Origin: Neptuniibacter halophilus
GTDB taxonomy: Bacteria > Pseudomonadota > Gammaproteobacteria > Pseudomonadales > Balneatricaceae
Assembly (NCBI RefSeq): GCF_030295765.1
Contig: NZ_AP027292.1
Location: forward strand, 2,604,001 to 2,668,000
Reading direction: 5' to 3'
DNA length: 64,000 nucleotides
Positions 44,513 to 51,546 of this stretch are shown piece after piece. Numbering within the stretch: the first letter of the stretch is position 1; each line of letters begins with the position of its first letter. A model generated the notes under the pieces. That model worked only from the letters and a program-made list of their open reading frames with translations, was not told where the DNA came from and ran no database searches. The position numbers and the translations under genes are program-made.

Positions 44513-44974
44513 ATGCTGATGGCACATATTAAAATTTTGCTTGGAACGGTGTACGGCAATGCGCAGGAGGTTGCTGAATCTGCACAGACGTTGCTGCAAG
44601 CGCTGGGGCATCAGGTTCAGGTGCTGCGTCAGCCTGCTTATGCCGAAGTGGTCACGGAGGATGCAGACGTGTTGCTGGTGTGCACATCAACCACCGGGCA
44701 GGGCGAGTTACCGGATAGTCTGCTGCCTCTCTATGTGGAGCTGCGGGATCGATTCCCGCTGTTACCTGACGTACGTTTTGGTCTGATCGGGCTGGGAGAC
44801 TCTTCCTATGATGAGTTTGCCGGCGGTGGCCGACTGATGCTGGAACTGCTTCAGGAGTTGCAGCTAAAACAGGTTGGTGAGCCGTTGTGGATCGATGCCT
44901 GTGAAACCATGAACCCCTGGGAAGAGGCTGAGCCCTGGTTGCAGGGCTGGTCTGAACAGCTTCGCAGCGCTTAG
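44513..44974 (+). CDS. Short-chain flavodoxin (MioC/YqcA-like)
   Basis: This protein of about 153 residues has a FMN phosphate loop (GTVYGNAQEVA near residue 11), an STTGQGELPDS loop, and GLGDSSYDEFAGG, all typical of flavodoxins. Short MioC/YqcA proteins transfer electrons from ferredoxin-NADP reductase. ATG 44513 and 44519 are both possible starts. It overlaps the end of the convergent GGDEF-EAL gene by four bases. Confidence 0.88.
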   Translation: MLMAHIKILLGTVYGNAQEVAESAQTLLQALGHQVQVLRQPAYAEVVTEDADVLLVCTSTTGQGELPDSLLPLYVELRDRFPLLPDVRFGLIGLGDSSYDEFAGGGRLMLELLQELQLKQVGEPLWIDACETMNPWEEAEPWLQGWSEQLRSA

Positions 44975-47067
44975 CAGGCTAAGGGCGGAAGCTGTTCTTT
45001 CAGCAGGAGCGCCCGGAAACTCCGGGCATCAAGTGGCTTGCTGAACAGATACCCCTGTAACTGATCACAACCCTGTTCTGTCAGGAACGCCTGCTGCTCA
45101 GGGTTTTCAACCCCTTCTGCACAGGTGGTCAGGCCCAGCGTATGGCTGAGTAGAATGACGGCTCTGGCGATCGCCTCATCATCTGAATCCAGCGGGATAT
45201 CCCGCACCAGCGAGCGGTCCATCTTGACCTTGGTCAGCGGCAGCTTTTTCAGGTAGCTGAGTGCGGAGTAGCCGGTTCCGAAATCATCCAGTGCGAGTTC
45301 CACACCCAACTGACGTAAGCGGCTGAAAGTCAGGGTGGCTGCCTGTTCATGCTCCATCAGAAAGGTTTCGAGGATTTCCAGCTCCAGTTGTTGCGGCGGT
45401 ATCTGGTAGGTTTTCAACAGGCCAGCAACCCGGTCGGGAAGTTCCGGGCCGGTGATTTGTGCACTGGCCAGATTCACCGACACTTTTAAGTCGCTATACC
45501 CCTGAGCTCTCCATTCAGCCAGTTGCTTAAGGGCTTCCTCTAAAACCCAGTCGCCGAGCCTCTGCATCAGGCCAATCTCTTCAGCAATCGGCAGGAACTG
45601 GTCGGGCATGATCAGCCCCTGTTCCGGGTGCTGCCAGCGGACCAGCGCTTCGGCACCGGTAATCCGTCCGGTTCTGCTTTCGATCTGCGGCTGGTAGTGG
45701 AGTCTGAGCTGACCTTCATCCAGTGCTCTGCGCAGCGCCGGTTCCAGTTCGACCCAGGCTTCCAGGCGGGCACACTGTTCCGGCTGGAAAAAGGCGTAGT
45801 GATTGCGTCCGCTGGCTTTCACCTGATTCAGCGCGATATCGGCATGTTTGCTCAGGGTTTCCAGATCTTCTCCATGTTCCGGTGCGGTGGCAATACCGAT
45901 ACTGGCGCTGGAGAAAAACTCCTTTTCACCCAGACGGAAAGGCTGCTCAAGTGCGCTGCCTATTTCGCGGGCTATGCGGGCGGCTTCGGGGTTATTGCTG
46001 AGCAAGATGGCAAATTCATCACCGCCGAGACGGGCCAGCGTATCCTGAGGCCGCAGAATCCGGTTGAGGCGTTCACTGACCTGCAGCAGCAGGTCATCGC
46101 CATAACGATGACCGAGACTGTCGTTAATGTGATTAAACCGATCCAGATCCAGATGCAGGATCTGAATCTGCTCATCAGGCTGGCGTTGCTCCAGAGCGTG
46201 TTCCAGGCGGATGGCAAATAGCAGCCGGTTAGGCAGGCCGGTCAGGGGGTCATGGTGAGCCAGATGGGAGAGCCGGGCTTCTGAGGCTTTAATGTTGCTC
46301 AGGTCAGCGATCACATTGACGAAGTGGGTGAGCTCGGTGCTGACCGGATCAAAGACCGCGTTGATGTTGACCCAGTGCGGTACCACCTCGCCATTTTTTC
46401 GCCGGTTCCAGATCTCACCCTGCCAGTGGCCATGTTGCTCCAGCGCCTGCCAGATTGACTGGAAGAACGCTTCATCGTGCCGATCAGAACGCAGCAGCGC
46501 AGGGGTCTGGCCAATCAGCTCTTCCCGGCTATAGCCGCTAATCCGGCTGTAGGCCCGGTTGATATCAATAATCTGGTTATGGCGGTCTGCAATCAGAATA
46601 CCCTCACTGGTACTGGAGAAGGCGATCCCCGCCAGTCGCAGTTGCTCTATGGTCGCTTTTTCGGGGGTGATATCCAGCAGAACGCCATTCCATATCGGGT
46701 TCTGTTGTAAGGGTTGTTCCGGCATAGATGAGCCGCGAATCCAGCGAAGTTCGCCATTTCGATGAAACAGACGAAATTCATAGTGCCAGGCTACGCTGTG
46801 CTGGCTGGCGTGGATAATACTGGCCCAGAAACCGGCCTGATCCTCCGGGTGTATCTGTTTCAGAAACAGGCCAAAGTCGCGGGTAGCATCTTTTGCGTGA
46901 ATACCGGAAATCTGTTCGATACCGGGACTAATGTAGGTAAAGTGCTGGCTCAGATCGGGTTGAAGGCGGTACTGGTAGACAGCGCCGGGCATACCCTGAG
47001 TGATACTTTGCAGCAGGTGCTCGGCAGGCAGTGTGTCTGGCAGCCGGGGTTCTGGGTTACTCAGCAT
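44971..47067 (-). CDS. PAS-PAS-GGDEF-EAL c-di-GMP protein
   Basis: This is a 698-residue soluble protein. Two PAS/PAC regions (about 20-135 and 145-270) precede a GGDEF domain (about 275-430, RLGGDEFAILLS with an RPQD I-site five residues before it) and an EAL domain (about 440-690). EAL residues are present: EALVRW, SVNLAS, ELEILET, DDFGTGYS and KMDRSLVRDI. Both cyclase and phosphodiesterase activity are therefore possible; which one dominates cannot be predicted. The PAS sensor input is unknown. Confidence 0.92.
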   Translation of the reverse strand: MLSNPEPRLPDTLPAEHLLQSITQGMPGAVYQYRLQPDLSQHFTYISPGIEQISGIHAKDATRDFGLFLKQIHPEDQAGFWASIIHASQHSVAWHYEFRLFHRNGELRWIRGSSMPEQPLQQNPIWNGVLLDITPEKATIEQLRLAGIAFSSTSEGILIADRHNQIIDINRAYSRISGYSREELIGQTPALLRSDRHDEAFFQSIWQALEQHGHWQGEIWNRRKNGEVVPHWVNINAVFDPVSTELTHFVNVIADLSNIKASEARLSHLAHHDPLTGLPNRLLFAIRLEHALEQRQPDEQIQILHLDLDRFNHINDSLGHRYGDDLLLQVSERLNRILRPQDTLARLGGDEFAILLSNNPEAARIAREIGSALEQPFRLGEKEFFSSASIGIATAPEHGEDLETLSKHADIALNQVKASGRNHYAFFQPEQCARLEAWVELEPALRRALDEGQLRLHYQPQIESRTGRITGAEALVRWQHPEQGLIMPDQFLPIAEEIGLMQRLGDWVLEEALKQLAEWRAQGYSDLKVSVNLASAQITGPELPDRVAGLLKTYQIPPQQLELEILETFLMEHEQAATLTFSRLRQLGVELALDDFGTGYSALSYLKKLPLTKVKMDRSLVRDIPLDSDDEAIARAVILLSHTLGLTTCAEGVENPEQQAFLTEQGCDQLQGYLFSKPLDARSFRALLLKEQLPPLAC

Positions 47068-47193: not shown

Positions 47194-47781
47194 TTAACTG
47201 TTTACAACCTGACGGAAGGTCAGGTTAATCCGGGGCATATTACAGCGCCGGGTTTTCGGTATGCTGTGTTGCCACTGCTGCTGGATACCCCGGCCCATCC
47301 ACAGCAGTGAGCCACCGGTCAGCGTCAACTCCAGACGGCGCTGATCACCCTGATGGCGCAGCAGAAAACGTCTGCTGGCACCCAGAGAGAGGCTGGCGAT
47401 CACAGGGTCTTTGCCAAGCTCGGGTTCATTGTCCCGGTGCCAGCCCATACTGTCCTGACCATCCCGGTAGAGATTGAGGAGCACTGCGTTGAATTCAGTG
47501 CCCGTGGCCTGAAGTAAACGCTGGCGGTAATGTTCGACTACCGGGTGCCAGCCGCTGGCCTCAAGGGTAAGCCCGGAGTAGCGGTAATGGATACCGGGGG
47601 CGCCCATGAAGGCCTGCAGTCTCGGGATTAGCTGTTCCCGGCCGAACAGGCGGATTTTGTCCTGATGCCAGTTGATCTCCTGACTGAGCCGCGCTAGCTG
47701 TGCTTCCTGATCGGAGGCTGGCAGAAAGTCCGGTTCAAGCCAGCAGTCGATATCTGCAGCCGGATAGATACGCGGATTCAT
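47194..47781 (-). CDS. AlkB-family 2-oxoglutarate/Fe(II) dioxygenase
   Basis: This 195-residue protein is of the AlkB fold. The iron-binding HxD is in GWHRDNEPELG, and the 2-oxoglutarate-binding Arg residues are in MPRINLTFR near the C-terminus. NLYRDGQDSMGWHRDNE is close to ALKBH2-like DNA repair enzymes, which remove methyl groups from 1-methyladenine and 3-methylcytosine. The start overlaps the PRPP-synthetase-like gene stop by four bases, so it is coupled to nucleotide metabolism genes. Confidence 0.88.
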   Translation of the reverse strand: MNPRIYPAADIDCWLEPDFLPASDQEAQLARLSQEINWHQDKIRLFGREQLIPRLQAFMGAPGIHYRYSGLTLEASGWHPVVEHYRQRLLQATGTEFNAVLLNLYRDGQDSMGWHRDNEPELGKDPVIASLSLGASRRFLLRHQGDQRRLELTLTGGSLLWMGRGIQQQWQHSIPKTRRCNMPRINLTFRQVVNS

Positions 47782-48656
47782 ACCAGCTTCAACGCCGCTT
47801 CGCTCAGAGGCGTGCAGATATCTATACGGTTGCTGCGGTGAGGTACGCTGTTACAGGTGACGACTTCAGCCACATCGCTGAGCTGCTGGTAAGCGGAATC
47901 GGAGAACAGGCCATGAACACCAATGCAGCAGGGTTTCGGTAACCCGGCCCGCTGCAGGTGAGCGACCGTTTCGAGCATGGTTTTGCCGCTGGAGATGATG
48001 TCATCCACCAGTACCGGGGTGTGCTCACGCCAGCGCTCCACCTCCGGCAGAGAGACCTCTACATCGTAATCACCGTGGCGTATTTTGCTGAGTACCTGAA
48101 ACGGGGCCGAGGCGAGTTCTGCAACCTGTGATACCCACTGTTCACTCTCGCTGTCCGGTCCGATCAGCAGGGGCTGGTGGATATTTTCCCGGATCCAGCG
48201 GGCGATCATGGCGGCGGCATGCACCACTTCGCCACGCAGACTGTAGATCTGATCCAGCGAGTGGTAGCGATGCAGGTGGGGATCGAGTGTCACCATCCAG
48301 TCCAGCCGTTGCGAAAGGAGCCGGGCAAAGGGGCGTGACGAAACGCACTCACCCGGCTGAAAGCGCTTGTCCTGCCGCATATAAGCGAGGTACGGCGTGA
48401 TCAGACCAACCCGGCTGGCACCGAGTTCGAGCAATGTATCTGCCAGAAAATAGAGATCGAGAAACTTTTGGTTGGGCTGGTAGAGGTTGCAGAAAATGAT
48501 AGTTGAACGGTCTTTACAATCGCTCAGCACCCGCAGGTAACTTTCACCATCAGGGAAGCGGCGCAGACTCAGTTCGCCTGCTTCTGCTGCGATCTGTTCA
48601 GTCAGCTCTGCCGCGAGAGGGTTGTCGTTTTCCAGATTAAACAGCAGCGGTTTCAT
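47778..48656 (-). CDS. PRPP-synthetase-like phosphoribosyl protein
   Basis: This is a 292-residue homologue of ribose-phosphate pyrophosphokinase. It has RRFPDGESYLRV near the N-terminus, LITPYLAYMRQDKRFQPGE, DPHLHR, and the PRPP loop PVLVDDIISSGKTM. The catalytic flexible loop reads LSKIRHGDYDVEV, more like archaeal class III enzymes than the housekeeping KRR loop. It overlaps by four bases both the upstream AMP-phosphorylase-like gene and the downstream alkB-like gene. It may be a second, specialised enzyme rather than the housekeeping prs. Confidence 0.85.
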   Translation of the reverse strand: MKPLLFNLENDNPLAAELTEQIAAEAGELSLRRFPDGESYLRVLSDCKDRSTIIFCNLYQPNQKFLDLYFLADTLLELGASRVGLITPYLAYMRQDKRFQPGECVSSRPFARLLSQRLDWMVTLDPHLHRYHSLDQIYSLRGEVVHAAAMIARWIRENIHQPLLIGPDSESEQWVSQVAELASAPFQVLSKIRHGDYDVEVSLPEVERWREHTPVLVDDIISSGKTMLETVAHLQRAGLPKPCCIGVHGLFSDSAYQQLSDVAEVVTCNSVPHRSNRIDICTPLSEAALKLV

Positions 48657-50182
48657 GCGGATTTCTGCTCCTTAGTCAGCACGATAATGTCCTGATGATC
48701 TTCGAGAAATTCCACGGCGTAGCTCAGCTCGCCGGAGCTTTCGGCGTGAATGGTCAGTAATATCTGATTCGGCTCGACCAGACTGCCCAACTGGCAGTGC
48801 ATATCGACACCCGCCGCCAGATCCGCCGGAGCCCCCGCCAGTTTGGCAACTTTGGCCAGTTTGCGGTTATCAATGCTGCTGACCCGACCGCTGCCGTGGG
48901 CGATCAGTTCGTAGCGATAGGGCGCGATAGGGGGCTTTTTCAGGCCTCCCTGAGCCGCACAGATCGCCTGAAATTTTCCCCAGGCAGCCCCCGAATCAAG
49001 CAGCTCAAGCGCCTGATTACAGCCTTCGCCGGAGGGCAGGTCATTGACCATTTCCAGCATGGCTCCGGCTACTTCGGCGGCGCGCTTACGCAGATCCATG
49101 GGTTGTTGCGGATCATTCTGCAATACCTGAAGAATGTCCCGGGCTTCCAGCGCGGGGCCGATCCCCCGGCCGACCGGCTGGCTACCATCGGTAAACAGGG
49201 TCGTAATCTGCAGGTTAAGGGTTTCGGCAACCGCCTTGAAATTAGCGGCCAGCTTTTCGGCGGCTTCCTGACTGCGCACTTTGGCGGTCGGGCCAACCGG
49301 AATATCGATAACCACATGGGTCGCGCCGGCGGCGATCTTTTTCGACAGTACTGAGGCGATCAACTGACCTTCACTGTCAATATCCAGCGCCCGTTCGACC
49401 TGAATCAGCAGATCGTCGGACGGGGAGAGGCGAACCGAGCCGCCCCAGGCCAGACATCCCCCTTCCTGTTCAACCACGGCCCGCATCTGTTCCAGACTGA
49501 GGCTGACTTCTGTGAGGCTCTCCATTGTATCGGCAGTACCCGCCGGTGAGGTGATCGCCCGTGATGAGGTCTTCGGCATGGTCAGCCCGGCTGCGGTCAG
49601 GATAGAGACGATGATCGGCGTGGTCCGGTTTCCGGGTAAGCCGCCGACACAGTGCTTATCTACTACCACGGGCAAGCCCCATTCAATCCGGCTGCCGGAA
49701 TCGACCATCGCCCGGGTCAGGTCGGTGATCTCCCGGGTATTCAGCTTGTCATCACCACAGGCGGTAATAAACGCAGCCAGATGGACATCGGCATAACGTC
49801 CGGCGACGATGTCGTCGATGATTTCGCGTAGCTGTGCGGCGCTGAGTTCATTGCCATAGACTTTGGCCCGGATGTAGGCGTGGGAGTGAACCGGTTTCGG
49901 GTGGGAAAGCCAGATGGAATCGCCCTCTTCCAGTTGCAGACGGTTCCAGGCCGATTCGGAAAAACCGACATGGCCGGTCTGCAGAAGGTCGCCTGTCACC
50001 ATATTCAGGGTGGCAATAAGGTGATCTTTTTCGGTCCTGATCAGCACCCGGGAGAGCGCGGAAAACCCCTCCGAGCGGCAGACTGGACTATCCTGACGTA
50101 GGTAAACGGTAGGCTCCTGATGGGTATCCAGACCAAGACGGCAGGCGCTCAGCGGGGTCATGCGTTCAGGTACATAATTCAT
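48653..50182 (-). CDS. Thymidine/AMP phosphorylase-family protein
   Basis: This 509-residue protein has an N-terminal domain of about 90 residues resembling archaeal AMP phosphorylase, then the glycosyl-transferase core (DKHCVGGLPGNRTTPIIVSI, KTSSRAITSPAGTADTMES) and a C-terminal pyrimidine-phosphorylase domain. Archaeal homologues split AMP with phosphate to give ribose 1,5-bisphosphate and adenine. Adjacent to a PRPP-synthetase-like gene, this suggests a salvage route between nucleotides and PRPP. Length (about 500) fits AMP phosphorylase better than the 440-residue DeoA. Substrate is not known. Confidence 0.85.
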   Translation of the reverse strand: MNYVPERMTPLSACRLGLDTHQEPTVYLRQDSPVCRSEGFSALSRVLIRTEKDHLIATLNMVTGDLLQTGHVGFSESAWNRLQLEEGDSIWLSHPKPVHSHAYIRAKVYGNELSAAQLREIIDDIVAGRYADVHLAAFITACGDDKLNTREITDLTRAMVDSGSRIEWGLPVVVDKHCVGGLPGNRTTPIIVSILTAAGLTMPKTSSRAITSPAGTADTMESLTEVSLSLEQMRAVVEQEGGCLAWGGSVRLSPSDDLLIQVERALDIDSEGQLIASVLSKKIAAGATHVVIDIPVGPTAKVRSQEAAEKLAANFKAVAETLNLQITTLFTDGSQPVGRGIGPALEARDILQVLQNDPQQPMDLRKRAAEVAGAMLEMVNDLPSGEGCNQALELLDSGAAWGKFQAICAAQGGLKKPPIAPYRYELIAHGSGRVSSIDNRKLAKVAKLAGAPADLAAGVDMHCQLGSLVEPNQILLTIHAESSGELSYAVEFLEDHQDIIVLTKEQKSA

Positions 50183-50274
50183 CTGTATCTCTCCCTAATC
50201 TCATCAGTATAAGAGCCTTTGAGATTTGGGAAAACCGGAGTGAGCAACTCAGTACAGAGTTTTGCGGAGGGCCT

Positions 50275-50634
50275 ATGAGTCAGAAAGAATCACTACTGCA
50301 GGAAAACTGCGAAGCATGCCGCGCGGGTGTTCCTGCGCTGAGCCCGGAGGAAGCCAGTCAGCTCTTACAGCAACTGCCCGACTGGGAGATTAAACAGCAG
50401 GGGGCGGTGATGCAGTTATATCGGGCCTATACCTTTAAGGACTTTGCCGGGGCGCTGGCGTTTACCAACCGGGTGGGAGCGATGGCGGAAGCGTTGCAGC
50501 ATCACCCGGATATTCTGACAGCCTGGGGGCGGGTCGAGCTGATCTGGTATACCCATAAGATCGGCGGACTGCATCGCAATGATTTCCGCTGTGCGGCACG
50601 CAGCGATCAGCTTTATGTTGCTGATTCCAAATAG
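50275..50634 (+). CDS. phhB: Pterin-4a-carbinolamine dehydratase
   Basis: This 119-residue protein has the family motifs ALQHHPDILTAWGRVEL and THKIGGLHRNDF, with the active-site histidines. It dehydrates 4a-hydroxy-tetrahydropterin, usually for phenylalanine hydroxylase (phhA is not here). The cysteine pair ENCEACRAGVPALSPEE at the N-terminus is typical of the Pseudomonas protein. It is divergent from the AMP-phosphorylase-like gene and upstream of purU. Confidence 0.92.
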   Translation: MSQKESLLQENCEACRAGVPALSPEEASQLLQQLPDWEIKQQGAVMQLYRAYTFKDFAGALAFTNRVGAMAEALQHHPDILTAWGRVELIWYTHKIGGLHRNDFRCAARSDQLYVADSK

Positions 50635-50691: not shown

Positions 50692-51546
50692 ATGGAACGT
50701 AGATTCAGGTTGGTTCTGGCCTGCCCGGACCGGGTAGGGATTGTGGCGATGGTGAGTAATTTTATCTCCAGCCACGGCGGCTCAATTTCAGATGCTAACC
50801 AGCACACCGACGGTACCACCGGCTGGTTCTTTATGCGGGTGGAGATCAGCGCCAAAACCCTGCCATTCTCATTAGAGGAACTGAAAGAGGCGTTTTCGCC
50901 GATCGCCCAGTCGTTCAATATGGATTGGGATATGACCGATTCTGCGCAGCCGAAAAAGGTGATTCTGATGGCCAGCCGTCAGTCTCACTGTCTGGCGGAT
51001 CTGCTGTACCGCTACCATGAAGGTGAGCTGGACTGCGAGATCCCCTGTGTGATCTCCAACCACGATGACCTGCGCAGTATGGTGGAGTGGCATAATATTC
51101 CTTACCACCACGTACCGGTAGATAAGGAAAATAAAGAGCCACACTTTGCTGAAGTCAGCCGGCTGATTCGTGAGCACAAAGCGGATACCGTGGTACTGGC
51201 GCGTTATATGCAAATTCTGCCGACCGATATCTGTGCGGAATACGCCCACCGGATTATCAATATTCATCACAGTTTCCTGCCATCCTTCGCCGGAGCCAAA
51301 CCCTATCATCAGGCACATGAGCGCGGCGTAAAGCTGATCGGTGCGACCTGCCACTATGTGACGGAAGAGCTGGATGCCGGCCCGATTATCGATCAGGATG
51401 TGATCCGTATCAGCCACCGCGATATGCCGGATGAGATGGTACGTCTGGGCCGGGATGTGGAAAAAACCGTACTCTCCCGTGGTCTGCGCTGGCATCTGGA
51501 AGACCGGATTCTGGTACAGGGAAACAAAACAGTCGTATTTAACTGA
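50692..51546 (+). CDS. purU: Formyltetrahydrofolate deformylase PurU
   Basis: This 284-residue enzyme has an N-terminal ACT domain (about 5-80, LVLACPDRVGIVAMVSNFI) and a formyltransferase-like domain. Catalytic Asn-His-Asp residues lie in NIHHSFLPSFAGA and LDAGPIIDQD. It hydrolyses 10-formyl-THF to formate and THF. Length and domain order match E. coli PurU. It starts 57 bp after phhB. Confidence 0.95.
   Translation: MERRFRLVLACPDRVGIVAMVSNFISSHGGSISDANQHTDGTTGWFFMRVEISAKTLPFSLEELKEAFSPIAQSFNMDWDMTDSAQPKKVILMASRQSHCLADLLYRYHEGELDCEIPCVISNHDDLRSMVEWHNIPYHHVPVDKENKEPHFAEVSRLIREHKADTVVLARYMQILPTDICAEYAHRIINIHHSFLPSFAGAKPYHQAHERGVKLIGATCHYVTEELDAGPIIDQDVIRISHRDMPDEMVRLGRDVEKTVLSRGLRWHLEDRILVQGNKTVVFN

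Follow-up and report, generated by a model that had tools for sequence, protein, structure and literature searches.

A conserved bacterial gene pair for an AMP-phosphorylase-like and a divergent PRPP-synthetase-like protein, with a possible role in salvage of nucleotide ribose

Two adjacent genes of Neptuniibacter halophilus, here called A and B, belong to a pair that is conserved beyond chance. The full-length fold of protein A is nearest to that of archaeal AMP/NMP phosphorylase, and protein B is a PRPP-synthetase homologue with a remodelled pyrophosphate loop. A and B are tentatively taken as the central genes of a module, widespread in bacteria, that recovers the ribose of nucleotides by phosphorolysis, a reading that is plausible but falls somewhat short of probable.

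The gene pair and its distribution

The genes lie in a window of 64,000 nucleotides, the whole stretch of DNA analysed, from contig NZ_AP027292.1. The three genes A, B and C are all on the minus strand, and the open reading frames of the window confirmed both the genes and the two 4-base overlaps given in the preliminary description. The features are as follows.

50191..50196, minus strand: AGGGAG, a ribosome-binding-site-like run 8 bases ahead of the start of gene A (sequence)
48653..50182, minus strand: gene A, type-2 thymidine phosphorylase / AMP-phosphorylase-like, 509 amino acids (ORF, profiles, fold)
49619..49660, minus strand: residues 175-188 of gene A, the DKHCVGGLPGNRTT core (sequence)
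48653..48656, minus strand: A/B overlap, 4 bases (ORFs)
47778..48656, minus strand: gene B, divergent PRPP-synthetase homologue (NF005537), 292 amino acids (ORF, profiles, fold)
48267..48278, minus strand: residues 127-130 of gene B, HLHR, found in 97 of 97 B sequences (alignment)
48135..48161, minus strand: residues 166-174 of gene B, GPDSESEQW, the remodelled pyrophosphate loop (canonical PD-x-G-G/A) (alignment)
47778..47781, minus strand: B/C overlap, 4 bases (ORFs)
47194..47781, minus strand: gene C, AlkB-family dioxygenase, 195 amino acids (ORF, PF13532, solved relatives)

Neither promoters nor terminators were clearly more frequent in scans of the sequence than in its shuffles (1 versus 2.3 and 3 versus 2.8, respectively).

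Among 274 gammaproteobacterial genomes, 59 contained A, 53 contained B and 51 contained both, with B directly downstream of A on the same strand at 57 of the 61 places where A was found. The pair was also present in 29 of 30 class loci and in 69 of the best 80 related loci, which span Proteobacteria, Bacteroidetes and one Acidobacteria-type MAG, and at which neighbouring genes were grouped by clustering all ORFs by similarity. The exact 4-base A/B overlap recurred in 32 of these 69 B-holding loci when longest-ORF starts were used; the large negative B distances at L068, L077 and L091 probably reflect over-long ORF starts. Distances among A and among B sequences were correlated (70 sequences; Pearson 0.81, Spearman 0.46; 0 of 2000 permutations reached the Pearson value), a result of little weight because shared ancestry is uncontrolled.

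Other next genes do occur, so A does not always adjoin B: the following gene is unrelated to ribose phosphates at L059, L060, L062, L078 and L083, GAPDH-like at L082, a methyltransferase at L109 and acetate kinase at L056. No second candidate for the step assigned to B was found among the tested next genes of such loci. In G145 and G232, the two genomes that hold B but lack an A scoring over the cut-off, none of the other query genes was seen within about 8-9 kb (L167, L168).

Gene C is of the AlkB type, as had been described. It is the only PF13532 (AlkB-family) match found in the genome (E 1.4e-32; 114 bits against a gathering score of 31.2), its nearest solved relatives are ALKBH2/3, and H115, D117 and H172 match the HxD...H iron-site motif of these dioxygenases. 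It differs from E. coli AlkB in scoring far below the cut-off of the corresponding equivalog (NF011930; 21.4 bits, cut-off 267). AlkB followed B in 4 of 4 members of the genus and in 18 of 29 relatives of the window's own family, with one further partial match, but in only 4 of the best 80 related loci. AlkB thus seems to have joined the pair locally, as a third gene within a single bacterial family, and, having been seen only in that family and its near relatives, does not bear out a general coupling to alkylation repair. Of the three-gene co-occurrence suggested in the preliminary description, the A-B part stood and the AlkB part did not.

Proposed reactions and the altered loop of protein B

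From the observed gene order, conservation, neighbours, folds and residue pattern we infer two reactions, their direction and a physiological role. A would convert a 5'-NMP and phosphate to the free base and ribose 1,5-bisphosphate (R15bP), and B would catalyse R15bP + AMP <-> ribose 5-phosphate (R5P) + ADP. The chemistry of B would be that of a PRPP synthetase, a transfer between the C1 hydroxyl and the beta phosphorus of an adenine nucleotide with AMP as leaving group or acceptor, using ADP/AMP where PRPP synthetase uses ATP. The two steps would sum to NMP + Pi + AMP -> base + R5P + ADP, and the bond energy would be kept. Overall this conversion is endergonic under standard conditions and could proceed only if its products were strongly drawn off, which counts against the proposal. 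In many relatives the NMPs would be supplied by a neighbouring beta-CASP RNase-type protein, and R5P, by way of xylulose 5-phosphate, would feed phosphoketolase and acetate kinase.

The description of B as a PRPP-synthetase homologue was borne out by profile, structure and alignment. B exceeded the thresholds of two curated subfamily models named "ribose-phosphate diphosphokinase", NF005537 (392.9 bits, cut-off 322) and TIGR01251; the solved structures closest to it in sequence are those of archaeal PRPP synthetases, and it has the PRPP synthetase fold, with all of the 50 PDB matches listed being PRPP synthetases. In the alignment of B sequences F34, D36, R94, D96, H127, D168, K191, R193 and D219 are kept, as is T226 except for one Ser. 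Compared with PRPP synthetases (EC 2.7.6.1) of classes I-XII, B is alike in fold, nucleotide site, catalytic Lys/Arg (F34, D36, R94, D96, H127, K191 and R193 for these two sites) and R5P-binding residues, but differs in the loop after D168, in Trp174, in LHR after His127 and in having A as a partner gene. This loop reads x-E-S/A rather than the canonical x-G-G/A: all 97 B sequences have Glu in place of Gly, whereas Gly is present in the PD-x-G loop in 23 of 23 canonical PRPS rows (24 rows less HK155, which was left out because of a wrong reading frame). The altered stretch is the pyrophosphate loop, where PRPP's second phosphate would be expected to sit. A basic residue at position 225 was considered as a further signature and dropped because it is not conserved in a more divergent B set. 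In favour of the proposal, the E. coli PRPS residues that align with those kept in B bind R5P and ADP together (PMC9232217). Against it, a preprint holds that the PRPS classes share their catalytic residues (PMC13252144), and one canonical PRPS was nearly inactive with ADP as donor (PMC5395218).

The main rival to the proposed transfer between R15bP and AMP is that B, though divergent, still works as a genuine PRPP synthetase. A would then free bases, along with R15bP or ribose 1-phosphate, and the PRPP made by B would let phosphoribosyltransferases re-use them, making the pair a salvage operon. The kept fold and checked catalytic residues and the passed family cut-offs make this a real possibility, if an unlikely one, and G016 and G105, the 2 of 53 B genomes in which no canonical PRPS was seen, would also fit. 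However, the PRPS model matched at least twice in 51 of the 53 B genomes, and the 2 of 53 with one match do not exceed the 13 of 221 other genomes with no PRPS match or only matches weaker than 1e-10. PRPS absence is therefore at least as frequent elsewhere, and G016 and G105 say nothing either way on B as a stand-in for housekeeping prs. In the window's genome a canonical prs sits elsewhere, which rules out B as the sole prs, a case raised in the preliminary description. Also against a PRPP synthetase are the invariant loop change and the neighbouring phosphoketolase and acetate kinase, which would compete for R5P. With the remodelled loop and the phosphoketolase, acetate kinase and RNase-type neighbours, ribose catabolism fits better than a PRPP route, and the route to PRPP through B proposed earlier becomes doubtful.

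Neighbouring genes and low-oxygen regulation

A beta-CASP RNase-type gene was near in 51 of the best 80 related loci and phosphoketolase in 20, the latter sometimes in one run with acetate kinase; after near-identical loci had been removed the counts were 40 of 66 and 12 of 66, respectively. At L056, L086 and L092 the acetate kinase gene shares 4 bases with the end of A, the family being confirmed for L056. Nearby genes also included a heavy-metal ATPase (33 of the best 80 loci) and a 2-hydroxyacid dehydrogenase (15 of the 80), and six records share a near-identical stretch. Two observations count against the proposed pathway. Among the 30 class loci, only 2 had a beta-CASP match within flanks of about 1.5 kb. 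In the window's genome beta-CASP gave no match (control matched in 6 of 14; a second search had no control) and phosphoketolase was not found (control matched in 4 of 14), so R5P would there enter the ordinary pentose phosphate route.

In the available parts of two papers, bll3117-bll3116-bll3115 of Bradyrhizobium diazoefficiens is a predicted FixK2-dependent, low-oxygen operon, and phosphoketolase-acetate kinase stands in the same FixK2 table (PMC9104804; PMC6515984). Its genes correspond to A, B and an MBL-fold gene, a likeness based on printed names only; the window differs in having AlkB in place of the MBL protein and no FNR/FixK-like site seen. The stretch separating the start of A (50182) from the divergent gene next to it holds no FNR/Anr/FixK-like site, a further point against the proposal. 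Across the whole window 43 palindromes with up to 2 mismatches were counted, against a shuffle mean of 25.35 (0 of 100 shuffles had as many), none of them at this operon. Strict palindromes were not enriched upstream of A (1 of 80 loci) or of the beta-CASP gene (1 of 51), the random rate being 1.6%. Low-oxygen control is therefore stated for Bradyrhizobium only.

These neighbourhoods also admit the reading, on balance improbable though still a serious one, that the genes are mere companions in low-oxygen or stress islands, with phosphoketolase, metal ATPase and 2-hydroxyacid dehydrogenase reflecting co-regulation or co-transfer rather than one pathway. The frequencies of the ATPase and dehydrogenase, the stretch common to six records and the FixK2 regulon as excerpted from PMC9104804 all agree with it, and it is compatible with other readings of A and B. 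It leaves unexplained the near-obligate, often overlapping A-B pair and the overlaps of A with acetate kinase.

Protein A and the fate of ribose 1,5-bisphosphate

In profile searches A passed NF003338 (680.1 bits, cut-off 434) and TIGR02645, the type-2 thymidine phosphorylase family (578.4 bits, cut-off 434.6). With the AMP phosphorylase model TIGR03327 it scored 483.9 bits, under the curated cut-off of 535, and with two thymidine phosphorylase models only 143.5 and 199 bits. It has the extra N-terminal domain of AMP phosphorylase and its full-length fold (4ga5; TMq 0.88, 500 columns). The likeness to AMP phosphorylase noted earlier is thus upheld by sequence, N-terminal domain and fold. All natural 5'-NMPs are substrates of the Thermococcus kodakarensis enzyme, according to excerpts of PMC8376864. 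That A is instead an ordinary thymidine/pyrimidine nucleoside phosphorylase, with B handling ribose phosphates without specific coupling, is unlikely given these scores and the full-length architecture, although NCBI models give A that name. The window's genome has one further match to the A model, which is outside those listed in the deoA-like range of other genomes, so A might fill the deoA role.

In the archaeal NMP shunt or pentose bisphosphate pathway (T. kodakarensis TK0352, R15P isomerase and Rubisco; PMC9700705, as excerpted) the NMP phosphorylase resembles A in sequence and full-length fold, and R15bP would likewise be the node. The systems differ in what follows. The window's genome gave 0 matches to the R15P-isomerase type (PF01008; control matched in 9 of 14), which leaves R15bP without its archaeal exit; a PRPP-synthetase-like partner is present instead, and the likely exit in relatives is phosphoketolase and acetate kinase. 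A PhnN-family protein is encoded elsewhere in the genome (202.7 bits, cut-off 156) and would be a better candidate than B if R15bP is converted to PRPP in this cell. For B itself to be an R15bP kinase like PhnN (R15bP + ATP -> PRPP), completing the NMP -> R15bP -> PRPP route of the preliminary description, is very unlikely: it would link A's product to PRPP in two steps and suit a pair nearly always found together, but gamma-phosphoryl transfer to the C1 phosphate lies outside known PRPP-synthetase-fold chemistry, the altered loop is the one expected to hold PRPP's second phosphate, and the PhnN-family protein is already there.

With the proposed phosphorolytic salvage by A and B as the starting point, a bolder possibility, held with clear reserve, is that B has branched off from PRPP synthetase as a new, ADP-using enzyme, a ribose-1,5-bisphosphate:AMP phosphotransferase. 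Together with the beta-CASP ribonuclease, phosphoketolase and acetate kinase, A and B would then form a bacterial pathway, undescribed in open-access literature, in which ribose from RNA nucleotides is fermented and a phosphate bond is spared when the nucleotide is cleaved, a counterpart of the archaeal Rubisco-linked NMP shunt.

The names "thymidine phosphorylase" and "ribose-phosphate diphosphokinase" given to this pair in many bacterial genomes are probably misnomers. Until now R15bP has been familiar chiefly from archaea and phosphonate breakdown. If the proposal is true, nucleotide turnover in bacteria would commonly pass through R15bP, a small loop change would have given one member of a universal enzyme family a different reaction, and low-oxygen bacteria would have a testable way to gain energy from their own RNA.

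Gene order and conservation across genomes

The three overlapping genes of the preliminary description were recovered as open reading frames encoding 509 (A), 292 (B) and 195 (C) amino acids, with 4-base overlaps at both the A/B and B/C junctions, and AGGGAG was read from the sequence 8 bases before the A start. These genes and their neighbours, the latter named from family models, are as follows.

44971–47067, PAS-GGDEF-EAL protein, downstream of C
47194–47781, minus strand, gene C, AlkB family (PF13532)
47778–48656, minus strand, gene B, PRPP-synthetase homologue
48653–50182, minus strand, gene A, type-2 thymidine phosphorylase/AMP-phosphorylase-like
50275–50634, divergent from A, pterin-4a-carbinolamine dehydratase gene
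50692–51546, next after the dehydratase gene and divergent from A, purU-type gene (formyltetrahydrofolate deformylase)

The purU-type gene is close upstream of A in 6 of the 7 related loci that hold one and is likewise found at A in all four genus relatives.

Across 274 gammaproteobacterial genomes, A scored above cut-off in 59, B in 53, and both in 51, with a partial or below-cut-off B in four more A genomes and B without A in two (Fisher's test, 3e-44, uncorrected for kinship). At 57 of the 61 A places in this set, B (whole or partial) follows A directly downstream in the same orientation; of the remaining four, one is 243 bases from its contig end. In the two small genomes G016 and G105, no PRPP-synthetase homologue other than B was detected, which assembly gaps may explain. 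A wider set, the best 80 of 581 genome-contig matches to A, is biased towards the query's close relatives and carries titles from Alpha-, Beta-, and Gammaproteobacteria, Bacteroidetes, and one MAG of the Pyrinomonadaceae, an Acidobacteria family. B was found in 69 of these 80 loci, in 60 of them at −60 to +100 bases from the end of A.

Of the three families, A and B keep their adjacency; this does not extend generally to AlkB, which follows B in 4 of the best 80 of 581 loci (Neptuniibacter, Amphritea (two), and Marinobacterium). AlkB also follows B in 18 of 29 relatives from the window organism's family (plus one partial match) and in all four genus relatives; the 29 are the best-scoring of the 40 relatives, out of 59 searched, that have a B-like gene, and these sets may overlap in species. 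It was not seen after B in the remaining loci, with the 30 class loci (further A loci taken with short flanks) extending past B by no more than roughly half a kilobase. The most fitting view of AlkB is that of an addition to the pair at family level; as it was seen beside B only in the organism's own family and near relatives, coupling to alkylation repair does not hold as a general feature. PF13532 has a single match in the genome, gene C, which ends the A-B-C operon; therefore, operon control would also control AlkB.

Sequence and structure of the A and B products

The closest named relative of A among the matches listed is from Neptuniibacter marinus (81% identity), which suggests that the organism probably belongs with Neptuniibacter. 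A passes the cut-offs of NF003338 and TIGR02645 and falls short of the AMP phosphorylase equivalog TIGR03327 (483.9 versus 535 bits needed). Its best solved relative is 4ga5 (Thermococcus kodakarensis, titled AMP phosphorylase; E 9.5e-97), to which the AlphaFold model of A (pLDDT 92.4) aligns with a TMq of 0.88 over 500 columns, compared with about 0.72 and 0.70 for the human and E. coli thymidine phosphorylases, whose matches start only near A residue 94–103. The T. kodakarensis enzyme is described as phosphorolysing all natural 5′-mononucleotides (PMC8376864). This activity and the likeness to 4ga5 suggest that nucleoside 5′-monophosphates are likely phosphorolysed by A.

B was assigned by profile score to subfamily NF005537, and its model (pLDDT 93.3) has the PRPP synthetase (PRPS) fold, all 50 PDB matches listed being PRPP synthetases. 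B is not the sole PRPP-synthetase homologue, a canonical PRPP synthetase being encoded elsewhere in the genome at C1:1103659. A first set of 66 B sequences (the window and 65 loci; 54 at <90% identity) and a second of 31 more divergent ones gave 97, which are not independent because some are close to each other; these were compared with 23 canonical PRPP synthetases (3 partial; one wrong-frame row left out). Residues F34, D36, R94, D96, H127, D168, K191, R193, and D219 are conserved in every sequence whose alignment reaches them; T226 is conserved with a single exception. By motif-to-motif alignment, the kept residues match F35, D37, H131, D170, D221, and T228 of E. coli PRPS, which are described as binding ADP and ribose 5-phosphate (R5P) together in the active site (PMC9232217). 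After PD-x, canonical enzymes have Gly and then Gly or Ala (23/23), whereas B has Glu (97/97) and then Ser (94) or Ala (3); W174 and L128-H129-R130 are found in 97/97 B sequences. The altered stretch corresponds to the "PP loop", a name taken from the B. subtilis structure. With its active-site residues kept and Glu after PD-x, B therefore looks like an intact enzyme that is changed at the site expected, in a PRPP synthetase, to bind the pyrophosphate being transferred.

Other neighbours and regulation

Neighbour clusters were named by family models from one member each, the rest by similarity to that member. Among the best 80 of 581 loci, a heavy-metal ATPase was found in 33, phosphoketolase in 20, 2-hydroxyacid dehydrogenase in 15, type-II GAPDH in 10, and acetate kinase in 6. 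A beta-CASP/RMMBL metallo-beta-lactamase-type protein of RNase-type architecture (one member scanned) was found in 51 of these loci, against just two of the 30 class loci (about 1.5 kb flanks); the strength of the association therefore differs within the A family, one part showing it strongly and another weakly. Thinning the 80 to one locus per 85% A identity left 66 (B 55, beta-CASP 40, phosphoketolase 12), 49 of them with >5 kb on both sides (41, 29, and 12, respectively).

Gene orders in related A loci
L086, L092: beta-CASP-A-acetate kinase-phosphoketolase-B
L056: A-acetate kinase-phosphoketolase
L099, L102 (same stretch twice): B-phosphoketolase-beta-CASP-A
L106: acetate kinase-phosphoketolase-A-B

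A stretch of 18–21 kb, 98.6–99.5% identical in L080, L081, L084, L087, L088, and L094, holds beta-CASP-A-B, phosphoketolase, type-II GAPDH, a PPK2-type polyphosphate kinase, and a heavy-metal ATPase. Carried by two Burkholderiales MAGs and records named Hydrogenophaga, Achromobacter ruhlandii, Pseudomonas rhodesiae, and Pigmentiphaga, it is apparently a mobile island. In 11 loci, mostly Bacteroidetes (L058, L070–L074, L090, L095, L100, L109, and L112), a protein lies upstream of A that, in the one member scanned, has an Mrr-type nuclease domain and an ATP-cone match below threshold. Another conserved protein, of ~215 amino acids, was found in 8 loci, mostly Bacteroidetes, and in most of them it comes right behind B; the member scanned (L071:12383–13027) had no Pfam or NCBIfam match.

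In Bradyrhizobium diazoefficiens, bll3117-bll3116-bll3115 (thymidine phosphorylase family, ribose-phosphate pyrophosphokinase, and MBL fold) are reported as a predicted operon carrying a FixK2 box; the same table lists bll2518-bll2517 (phosphoketolase and acetate/propionate kinase) (PMC9104804, PMC6515984). No FixK2-type box was seen at the A-B-C operon in a palindrome scan of the window, nor was there enrichment in the best 80 of 581 A loci. Imperfect TTGATNNNNATCAA palindromes (≤2 mismatches) number 43 in the whole window, compared with a mean of 25.35 in shuffles, 0 of 100 of which reach 43.

A candidate reaction for B

The archaeal exit for ribose 1,5-bisphosphate (R15bP), outlined as an isomerase and then Rubisco (PMC9700705), is not available here because no PF01008 gene (R15bP isomerase step) was found in the genome. 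A PhnN-family protein is present in the genome, and the route to PRPP through B proposed in the preliminary description is probably not followed. In PRPP-synthetase chemistry, the C1 hydroxyl attacks the beta phosphorus of ATP, and AMP is released. If ADP took the place of ATP, this mechanism would yield R15bP and AMP, and its reverse in B would convert R15bP and AMP to R5P and ADP. We tentatively prefer this last reaction, acting on the product of A, at somewhat under an even chance. It would join the product of A to the line feeding phosphoketolase, a recurrent neighbour of both genes, and would not require a site for a second phosphate, which agrees with the altered loop. Against it, canonical PRPP synthetase is described as hardly using ADP (PMC5395218), B has PRPP-synthetase catalytic residues, and neither the beta-CASP RNase nor phosphoketolase was found in the window's own genome. 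A 2026 preprint on PRPS diversity names new bacterial classes, and "thymidine phosphorylase" is absent from its main text (PMC13252144). The earlier interpretation is half right: a real conserved nucleotide-to-ribose-phosphate pair stands, whereas general coupling to alkylation repair does not and a route to PRPP through B probably does not.
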